Assembly (NCBI RefSeq): GCF_000819445.1
Contig: NZ_CP005286.1
Coordinates: 1,054,001 to 1,118,000, forward strand
Direction of reading: 5' to 3'
Source: Corynebacterium humireducens NBRC 106098 = DSM 45392
GTDB lineage: Bacteria; Actinomycetota; Actinomycetes; Mycobacteriales; Mycobacteriaceae
Length of the DNA stretch: 64,000 nucleotides
The position numbers were made by a program, and so were the translations under genes. Below are positions 40,009 through 49,007 of this stretch, one piece after another. The notes below the pieces were generated by a model. That model searched no databases. It saw nothing but the letters and a program-made list of their open reading frames with translations, and was not told where the DNA came from. Numbering within the stretch: the first letter of the stretch is position 1; each line of letters begins with the position of its first letter.

Positions 40009-40024
40009 TGTGACCGACCTTACA
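40009..40024. promoter_or_regulatory. CRP/GlxR-like box in the atp leader
   Basis: TGTGACCGACCTTACA matches TGTGA-N6-TCACA with one deviation. I recall that GlxR binds upstream of respiratory and ATP synthase genes in C. glutamicum; this site would fit. Confidence 0.5.
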
Positions 40025-47149: not shown

Positions 47150-47521
47150 ATGGCTGACATCACCGTTGAACTGGTCGCCGTGGAGCGCATGCTCTGGTCG
47201 GGTACGGCCAGCATCGTCACCGCGCAGACCACTGAGGGTGAGATCGGCGTGCTGTCGGGTCACGAGCCGATGCTCGGGCAGCTGCGCGAGAACGGCGTCG
47301 TGACCATCCGTCCGACCGACGGCGACAGGCTCGTCGCCGGCGTGCAGGGTGGCTTCCTCTCCGTTTCCCCGGAGAAGGTCACCATCCTCGCGGATTACGC
47401 GATCTGGGCCGACGAGGTTGACTCCTCGCTGGCCGAGTCCCAGCTGCAGGACGAGGACGAGTCTGTGCGCGCACGCGCGGAGGCTTCGCTCAACGCCGTG
47501 CGCCGTAAGGCTGAGGGCTAA
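47150..47521 (+). CDS. atpC: ATP synthase F1 subunit epsilon
   Basis: The 123-residue rotor subunit has the N-terminal beta-sandwich ([36 protein letters not shown]) and a C-terminal helical hairpin. GGAGGAG lies 8 nt upstream of the ATG. It ends the operon ahead of a strong terminator. Confidence 0.96.
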
Positions 47522-47551
47522 ATCCGAGGCGCCGCCTCTACCTCTCTCGGA

Positions 47552-47586
47552 CCGGCACCCGCCAGCGTCATGCTGGCGGGTGCCGG
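47552..47586 (+). terminator. atp operon terminator
   Basis: A perfect 15-bp stem (CCGGCACCCGCCAGC / GCTGGCGGGTGCCGG) with a GTCAT loop is followed by CCTTTCC, 31 bp after atpC. Confidence 0.92.
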
Positions 47587-47590
47587 CCTT

Positions 47591-47610
47591 TCCGCGCTTT
47601 CCGACGCCCC
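47591..47610 (-). repeat. GTCGGMAAGC repeat, intergenic copy
   Basis: The minus strand reads GGGGCGTCGGAAAGCGCGGA between the atp terminator and the next promoter. Confidence 0.5.
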
Positions 47611-47611
47611 C

Positions 47612-47641
47612 TTGACACCCTCATGTGATGTGGGTTACAGT
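47612..47641 (+). promoter_or_regulatory. Promoter of the candidate small RNA, with overlapping CRP-like box
   Basis: TTGACA (47612-47617), an 18-bp spacer and TACAGT (47636-47641) make one of the best promoters in the window. TGTGATGTGGGTTACA (47624-47639), a one-mismatch CRP/GlxR box, fills the spacer and overlaps the -10 box, so bound regulator would block transcription. Confidence 0.65.
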
Positions 47642-47647
47642 GATCGG

Positions 47648-47745
47648 ACAAGCTTCACAGAGCACATCGAGAGACAGGTTCTGTGAAGAAGTGGACCCCG
47701 GGTGTTCCGCCGAGAGGCGGGGACCCGGGGTCTGCGCGTTCCGCG
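47648..47745 (+). ncRNA. Candidate structured small RNA (or leader of the next gene)
   Basis: Downstream of a strong promoter, two hairpins follow each other. The first is CTTCACAGA (47653-47661) with TCTGTGAAG (47680-47688), 9 bp perfect, 18-nt loop. The second is GACCCCGGGT (47694-47703) with ACCCGGGGTC (47723-47732), 10 bp perfect, topped by CCGCC/GGCGG with a GAGA tetraloop. No open frame with a ribosome site lies within. The 3' end is not marked by T residues, so the end is a guess. It does not match the 6C or other RNA families I know. The next start codon is at 47827, so it could instead be a regulatory leader. Confidence 0.45.
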
Positions 47746-47826
47746 GCAGGGGCGGATCGGCCCACTTCGTTATTGGGCCGGTGGTGACTAAGATTGACCC
47801 TTAACCGTCGAGAAAGGGGTACGTCT

Positions 47827-48294
47827 GTGGAGATCGTGGCCTGGGTAGTGGGTGTCGTCGTTCTACTGGCTGTGCTGCTGGCACTGTGGCGCTTCCTCAC
47901 GCTGCGGTCACGGGGACAGACGGTCCTGCTGCGTCGCCTGCCGGCCTCGGGGCTGCACGGCTGGCGCCACGGGACGCTGCGTTACGACGGCGACCAGCTC
48001 CTCTACTACAAGCTGCGTTCCCTCTCCCCGCGCGCCGACCATGTCTTCCACCGTCAGCAGCTCGAGTTCCTCGACTCGCGGAACGTCTCGGAGGAGGAGG
48101 GTGGCTTCATGTCGCGGGACCTGCGTATCGCCACCCTGTCCGACGACCATGACGTCCGCTACGAGTTCGCCCTCGACCAGCACGGTCTCATGGCGCTGAC
48201 GGCCTGGGTGGAGGCCGCCCCCGACATCCGCCACGAGCGGATCGACTACGCCGCGCTGCGCGACAGGATCACCCGGGGCAAGAACGGGAAGTAG
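47827..48294 (+). CDS. DUF2550 membrane-anchored protein
   Basis: The 155-residue protein has one N-terminal membrane segment ([20 protein letters not shown], residues about 4-23). A soluble domain follows with [22 protein letters not shown] and [14 protein letters not shown], the actinobacterial DUF2550 pattern. The GTG at 47827 is preferred because AAAGGGG lies 8 nt upstream; a TTG at 47794 is possible. In mycobacteria and corynebacteria this gene regularly follows the atp operon. The function is unknown. Confidence 0.85.
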
Positions 48295-48301
48295 TCCCGG
48301 C

Positions 48302-48307
48302 TAGGGT
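48302..48307 (+). promoter_or_regulatory. nucS -10 box, leaderless
   Basis: TAGGGT, then GGGTCGC, then the nucS ATG (48315). Confidence 0.5.
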
Positions 48308-48314
48308 GGGTCGC

Positions 48315-49007
48315 ATGCGTTTAGTCATCGCCCGTTGTTCCGTGGATTACGTCGGCCGCCTGGAGGCACACCTGCCCATGGCGGACCGCCTGCTCATGAT
48401 CAAGGCCGACGGCTCGGTGTCCGTCCACGCCGACGACCGGGCCTACAAGCCCCTCAACTGGATGACCCCGCCCTGCACCCTCACAGAGACGTCCATCAGG
48501 AACATCGACGATGAGGACACGGGCGAGCAGCTGTGGATCGTGGAGAACAGCAAGGGGGAGCAGCTGCGGATCACCATCGAGGAGATCCACCACGAGACCA
48601 ACCACGACCTGGGCACGGACCCGGGCCTGGTCAAGGACGGCGTCGAGGCGCACCTCCAGGAGCTGCTGGCCGAGCACATCACCACCCTCGGTGAGGGCTA
48701 CAGCCTCGTGCGCCGGGAGTTCCCCACGGCCATCGGCCCGGTGGACCTGCTGGCCCGTGACCAGGACGGCGAGACCGTCGCCGTGGAGGTCAAGCGCCGC
48801 GGCGGGATCGACGGCGTCGAGCAGCTCACCCGCTACCTCGAGCTGCTCAACCGCGACGAGCTGCTCAGCCCGGTCCGTGGCGTGTTCGCCGCCCAGGAGA
48901 TCAAGCCGCAGGCCCGGCTGCTCGCCGAGGACCGCGGCATCCGCTGCGTCACGCTGGACTACCAGGCCCTGCGCGGCATCGAGTCCGACGAGCTCCGGCT
49001 GTTCTGA
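48315..49007 (+). CDS. nucS: Mismatch-specific endonuclease NucS (EndoMS)
   Basis: The 230-residue nuclease replaces MutS/MutL mismatch repair in actinobacteria, cutting both strands at mispaired bases. The N-terminal domain starts [20 protein letters not shown]; the C-terminal nuclease domain has GPVDLLARD (metal Asp) and VAVEVKRRG (EVK catalytic pair). The last residues DELRLF are the beta-clamp binding motif. The ATG at 48315 is leaderless; a GTG at 48306 lies inside the -10 box. Its stop overlaps the start of the next gene. Confidence 0.95.

Follow-up and report, generated by a model that had tools for sequence, protein, structure and literature searches.

The DNA analysed here, a window of 64,000 nucleotides from the single-contig genome of Corynebacterium humireducens (2,681,312 bases), carries between the end of the atp operon and a DUF2550 gene a stretch that very probably constitutes a genuine gene encoding a short RNA of two hairpins. 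Upstream, this stretch is bounded by a plus-strand hairpin at 47553-47587, which in a direct reading resembles a terminator of the atp operon, lies outside the RNA and was not called as a U-run terminator. Downstream follow the DUF2550 gene on the same strand (47827-48294, PF10739 by Pfam, GTG start at 47827), which is a neighbour and not a part of the RNA, and next the gene for endonuclease NucS (48306-49004; PF01939, PF21003). A -10-like element of the DUF2550 gene (TAAGAT, 47789-47794, plus strand), also read directly and with a counterpart in Corynebacterium pollutisoli, is located 3' of the RNA. The proposed RNA of about 90-100 nt extends from 47648 to 47745 on the plus strand, with its start deduced from the promoter and its 3' end uncertain, and ends 81 nt upstream of the GTG, close to the 80 nt given in the first-pass annotation.

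Transcription would start from a promoter composed of a -35 element TTGACA (47612-47617) and, after 18 bp, a -10 element TACAGT (47636-47641) with a G-T in front as in the corynebacterial extended -10. The description of this promoter as near-ideal was borne out by a scan for sigma-70-like promoters, in which it is the sole site between 46500 and 48800, with 0.2 sites found in shuffled sequences. It fits the housekeeping consensus TTGNCA of Corynebacterium glutamicum and agrees over GNTANANT with the extended -10 sequence GNTANANTNG reported for this species (PMC3917453). TTGAC of the -35 element is conserved in all eight closest copies of the RNA, most of which also read ATCGGACA at the 5' end (47642-47651 in the window).

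A CRP/GlxR-like box with one mismatch, TGTGATGTGGGTTACA, is indeed present at 47624-47639 of the plus strand, and its second half-site doubles as part of the -10 element. By itself the box is weak evidence, close to chance, because a motif count finds three such one-mismatch boxes in the 64-kb window where 1.16 are expected, and 8 of 100 shuffles also reach three. All 17 free-standing copies of the family described below, which are related to each other, have GTG in the CRP register, extended to GTGA in 11 of them; the two closest sister copies in the same genome are without the A of GTGA. Judged from the sequence, CRP/GlxR control of the putative RNA is plausible, and since the box overlaps the -10 element, repression would be more likely than activation. 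A further one-mismatch CRP/GlxR box (TGTGACCGACCTTACA, 40009-40024) is found some 210 nt ahead of the leader RNA of atpB (RF02916, 40235-40370).

The computed fold consists of hairpin 1 (47653-47688, plus strand, CTTCACAG...TGTGAAG), with 11 pairs and an inner part of 2 pairs, of which 6/13 are changed on both sides among relatives, and hairpin 2 (47691-47735, plus strand), with 13+7 pairs, one bulged base and a GAGA tetraloop at 47712-47715. The two strong hairpins and the GAGA loop noted earlier are therefore present, and only the pair counts of 9 and 10+5 given for them were slightly low in comparison to this fold. For positions 47647-47780 the minimum free energy is -78.1 kcal/mol, compared to -51.25 (sd 3.8) for shuffled sequences (z -7.07), and 0 of 200 shuffles folded as well. 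After hairpin 2, a scan of the window detected nothing resembling a terminator with a U-run, so that the 3' end is a guess; T-rich stretches 3' of hairpin 2 occur in some relatives (seen by eye and uncounted, e.g. at the loci L019, L027 and L030). A 1-nt indel within hairpin 2 separates the window copy from its sisters, which makes a protein-coding reading unlikely. At the gathering threshold, Rfam has no match in the window RNA, and a permissive search of 47500-47900 yielded three matches with E 0.33-0.94, all far below the gathering scores. Membership in a known RNA family, already doubted in the first-pass annotation, is rejected, as all Rfam matches at the RNA places and in the window stretch are sub-threshold with E of at least 0.33.

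Conservation of the stems beyond this species with compensatory changes had been named beforehand as a test of the RNA, and both the covariance-model search and the alignments reveal it. In a MAFFT alignment of the eight closest copies, which was not fitted to a model but uses a structure that six of these copies had supplied, 10 of 32 pairs are changed on both sides and 98.0% of the cells are paired, and sliding the partner lowers pairing to 33.6-56.1%. For broader comparisons we used two covariance models, R1 built from six copies, all of them free-standing, and R2 built from 31 members. The 31-row alignment fitted to R1 has compensatory changes in 23/32 pairs (slid controls 31.0-55.7%), and the alignment of 20 places in 15 loci (14 from the class-wide search) fitted to R2 has 22 of 26 pairs compensated (slid controls 36.4-45.5%), both alignments leaning towards the structure of their model. 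RNAalifold applied to the 20 rows predicts 15 pairs, 13 of them with double changes.

The RNA is not confined to this locus. Two further copies with 77% identity are encoded on the minus strand of the same contig (C1:1687003-1687133 and C1:1685851-1685962) and have the -35, the extended -10 and both hairpins in common with the window copy; together with a weaker sibling, the genome contains three strong copies and one weak one. The weaker sibling (C1:1917985-1918128; locus L043, 1486-1629) is positioned directly after a tRNA gene, as are its counterparts in the genomes G139, G220 and G074. At C1:1349168-1349345 (L054, 1169-1346), weak R2 matches of about 35 bits appear on both strands, perhaps merely reflecting a strong hairpin.

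By BLAST against 201 genomes of the genus, a copy was found in one further genome (G139). R1 matches 28 of 242 genus genomes at E <= 0.01, and R2 matches 49 of 242 in the genus (E <= 0.001), 31 of 251 in the family (E <= 0.01) and 24 of 296 in the class (E <= 0.001), the own genome being included in each count. In control loci brought in solely by a short pattern (17 loci, 120,577 bases), the best R2 match has E 0.39, and a search of plasmids with the window RNA gave no match. The 31-row alignment (A4) omits L026, L032, L034-L036, L048-L050 and L053 as repeats, near-repeats or doubtful cases. R1 also recovers copies that are paired with a protein gene, for example in G013 at 7.5e-8, and many other paired matches are weak (24-37 bits). 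That a model built from free-standing copies finds paired ones supports a single family.

Many copies of this RNA are arranged tail to tail with a gene whose product has about 190 residues. We compared 87 RNA places, which remain of 105 R2 matches after removal of 18 overlapping a better match; they come from 84 sources picked among the R1 and R2 matches rather than from all matches (not included are, for example, the weak or partial L117 and L121-L126, as well as several matches for which no locus was fetched). A convergent DUF3800-like gene ends within 100 nt of the RNA at 43/87 places and within 20 nt at 39/87, counts that include near-identical copies and are not independent by descent; the window copy does not belong to these 43. 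At L115 the protein gene is on the same strand as the RNA and was counted as solo. In the genus, 26 genomes contain RNA and protein, 6 the protein only, 23 the RNA only and 187 neither (p 5e-16, kinship ignored). With the protein cut-off set to E <= 1e-15, 26 genus genomes carry the protein and 25 of these the RNA, and 23 of the 49 RNA-positive genomes are without the protein at E <= 1e-5. Of the loci newly fetched after the class-wide search, 22 of 27 have the gene (19 different ones) and five (L198, L204, L207, L208 and L211) do not. The RNA is located on the 5' side of the protein gene in L199, L201 and L220 and overlaps the protein's open frame in L212 and L215. The genome of C. humireducens has no match to the module protein and none to PF12686, for which the same search was positive in C. 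glutamicum as a control. In G212, the module protein gene next to an RNA copy (L090, about 1501-1619) is split and contains stop codons. Judged from the neighbouring pitA gene, G212 is presumably C. glutamicum, and the literature on a pitA-linked small RNA in this species yielded nothing relevant.

For four module proteins, neither Pfam (E up to 0.01) nor NCBIfam (E up to 0.1) returned a family, and the PF12686 model did not match them (E up to 0.01). We use the label DUF3800 because 2 of 107 homologs bear the source name "DUF3800 domain-containing", because PADLOC gave weak matches for one of the four proteins to retron RT-DUF3800 (E 0.013 and 0.023), and because of the predicted fold; another of the four matched PDC-M04A (0.0011). 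The AlphaFold2 model of a module protein (pLDDT 95.5, pTM 0.91) retrieved RNase H2/HII/HIII in all 17 Foldseek matches at E <= 0.001, and although the match is remote (TM-score over the query 0.41-0.55), the predicted fold class is clearly RNase-HII-like. D10, E11 and S12 are invariant in 33 sequences. The model agrees with the RNase H fold attributed to DUF3800 (PF12686), a group described near putative ncRNAs and CRISPR effectors (PMC10910872, PMC12669027).

Within the family, two branches differ in the loop of hairpin 2. The motif CGGAC is present in this loop at 40 of 44 paired places, including one located 157 nt from the gene, versus 20 of 43 solo places, and the loop is of the CCGGACGA type in paired relatives versus GAGA, a GNRA loop, in the window copy. 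The promoter sequence GTTACA characterizes 17 places, all of which are solo (17/17) and none of which has the CGGAC loop (0/17). The window copy belongs to this free-standing branch, having no protein gene, no CGGAC loop and the conserved promoter. CGGAC recurs within ATCGGACA, the 5'-end sequence of most of the eight closest copies, which may be due to chance.

Near-identical modules sit in differing surroundings. In several module pairs, the identical block begins at the RNA promoter (-1 to -12) and continues for 593-597 nt beyond the RNA end, stopping near where the protein gene starts; in others, up to about 600 nt more upstream is also shared, or a whole 3-kb stretch. As the shared identity extends so variably, one fixed module end is not established. 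Relatives of the protein occur in 91 plasmid records, none of them reaching 60% identity, and one of 27% on a single phage that is present as two records. Direct repeats of the RNA were seen as well: two copies about 1.1 kb apart flank a gene in the own genome (L004, 5848-7134; C1:1685847-1687133) and in G139 (L010, 5012-6239), in both cases between rplS and an ABC transporter gene (named by eye). The flanked gene differs between the two species and belongs to no Pfam family at E 0.01. At L222, L223 and L224, from three more distant genomes, RNA copies are situated on either side of a DUF3800-like gene and resemble cassette ends.

On the basis of these data, the proposal that an undescribed small RNA is encoded here behind a promoter of its own is supported, and we favour, with a probability of roughly 70%, the reading that the window holds a small-RNA gene of an actinobacterial DUF3800-module RNA family, which belongs to the free-standing branch, most likely acts as a stand-alone regulator lowered by GlxR and is not specifically tied to the atp operon. 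Positions 47612-47745 would represent the complete gene with a housekeeping-type promoter, a CRP-like box and a two-hairpin RNA of some 90-100 nt. A large branch of the family consists of two-gene modules, in which an RNA gene and a DUF3800-like gene are arranged tail to tail, the gene usually ending within 20 nt of the RNA end. In these modules, the RNase-H-fold protein may bind the RNA via the CCGGACGA loop of hairpin 2, which hardly varies, and the bound RNA may in turn control (or serve) the protein. The window copy would most likely work as a regulatory RNA on its own, with GlxR-cAMP bound over the -10 element lowering its transcription. We tentatively extend this to a history of the family, to which we give rather less than even odds: the RNA with the near-invariant loop would be a dedicated partner of the RNase-HII-like DUF3800 protein in a new actinobacterial RNA-nuclease module, and a Corynebacterium lineage would have turned loose copies, which have lost this partner and the CCGGACGA loop, into regulatory siblings with a CRP-type promoter.

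A somewhat doubtful but serious alternative is that RNA and DUF3800-like nuclease form a mobile module similar to a toxin-antitoxin system, with solo copies being leftovers or protective antidotes. The compact two-gene arrangement, the patchy spread, the different surroundings of near-identical modules, the plasmid-borne relatives and the RNase-H fold of the protein are all compatible with this, as is the occurrence of solo copies in 23 genomes that do not have the protein; a sub-threshold match to the antitoxin RNA PtaRNA1 at L196 (E 0.81; 25.4 bits, with the cut-off at 47) is at chance level. However, the branch of the window copy does not have the CGGAC loop typical of paired copies, and whereas type III antitoxins form upstream repeat arrays, this RNA is convergent with the gene and in most cases present once. 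Quite improbable is a mainly DNA-level element, in which transcription is secondary and the RNase-H-fold protein recognizes the hairpins as the boundary of a cassette or as a mobility end. Such an element would account for the direct repeats that bracket a gene in the own genome and in G139, and for those around the DUF3800-like gene in G671, G679 and G483, but the promoter elements are conserved despite drift in much of the spacer between them, which favours transcription, and the stems contain G-U pairs.

The location itself was the argument for two further ideas, an ordinary 5' leader or attenuator belonging to DUF2550 and a functional link to ATP synthase, and both are rejected on synteny. 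C. pollutisoli (G220, L046) has an RNA copy at the equivalent place between atpC and DUF2550, in which the promoter motifs and the RNA block are kept and hairpin 1 is rebuilt. When the atpC-DUF2550 loci were scanned with R2, only these two of 26 contained the RNA (106.9 and 104.3 bits, own genome and C. pollutisoli); the 24 other relatives, whose gap from the atpC stop to the aligned DUF2550 start is 118-343 nt, showed no R2 match at E <= 1. Since R2 finds nothing at this site in these 24 relatives and a separate -10-like element precedes DUF2550, the RNA has most likely come to this place from elsewhere and forms a transcription unit of its own. A leader function would fit the same-strand position about 80 nt upstream of DUF2550, but it is very improbable in view of this rarity, of the -10-like element downstream and its C. 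pollutisoli counterpart, and of RNA copies at other sites that often face the 3' end of the next gene. The link to ATP synthase suggested in the first-pass annotation is not supported, as the RNA is also found at unrelated sites of the own genome and is missing from 24/26 atpC-DUF2550 loci; the location looks incidental. GlxR is described as activating the atp operon in C. glutamicum (PMC7026483), and a cAMP signal common to RNA and atp operon is possible. In a survey of C. glutamicum small RNAs, Table 2, which covers those of its 262 trans-encoded RNAs that RNAz supports, has no entry between cg1369 and cg1370 (PMC4046766). Finally, a guide RNA of an OMEGA-like RNA-guided nuclease, to which the RNase-H fold of the partner, the DUF3800 protein beside Cas12a2 and the earlier link of DUF3800 to putative ncRNAs (PMC10910872) could point, is the least probable reading, because conserved hairpins take up the RNA without a recognizable variable guide segment and because its transcription proceeds from the module edge inward.

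In this compact family, fixed gene order, a near-invariant loop and naturally partnerless copies make the RNA-protein question directly testable, namely whether the protein binds, cuts or depends on the RNA and whether the loop decides. The solo branch could be a case of an RNA moving from a mobile module into a host regulatory circuit.

In comparison to known systems, the actinobacterial 6C RNA (RF01066) is similar in being about 100 nt long with two stem-loops and its own promoter, and it has been tied to the GlxR network in C. glutamicum (PMC4046766). The window RNA differs from it in having neither a match to RF01066 nor C-rich loops. Mcr11 of mycobacteria, a cAMP/CRP-linked small RNA, is alike as an idea and set apart by its different locus. 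Type III toxin-antitoxin systems such as ToxIN and CptIN likewise combine a small structured RNA with an adjoining nuclease gene. Their RNA repeats are positioned upstream of, and co-directed with, a toxin gene encoding a ToxN-type fold, whereas in our family the RNA is convergent with the gene and the partner has a predicted RNase-H fold. The closest parallel is the DUF3800-associated RNA motif series I-XI, which was reportedly described by Weinberg and colleagues in 2017. Two of these motifs, DUF3800-I and DUF3800-IX, are listed in Rfam as RF02969 and RF02968 (PMC11701678), and a DUF3800 protein beside Cas12a2 has been discussed together with earlier links of DUF3800 to putative ncRNAs (PMC10910872). 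The Rfam DUF3800 models have no match in the window RNA and none at E <= 1 in 59 family loci (three permissive scans), and the matches listed for literature on DUF3800, corynebacterial small RNAs and GlxR contain no description of this RNA family, nor does Rfam 15. Like these motifs, our family is a structured RNA with conserved, compensated stems beside genes of the DUF3800 kind, but it differs by its fixed tail-to-tail order and by a solo branch with a CRP-like promoter. DUF3800-linked RNAs are therefore a known kind, of which this family and its solo branch appear to be new representatives.
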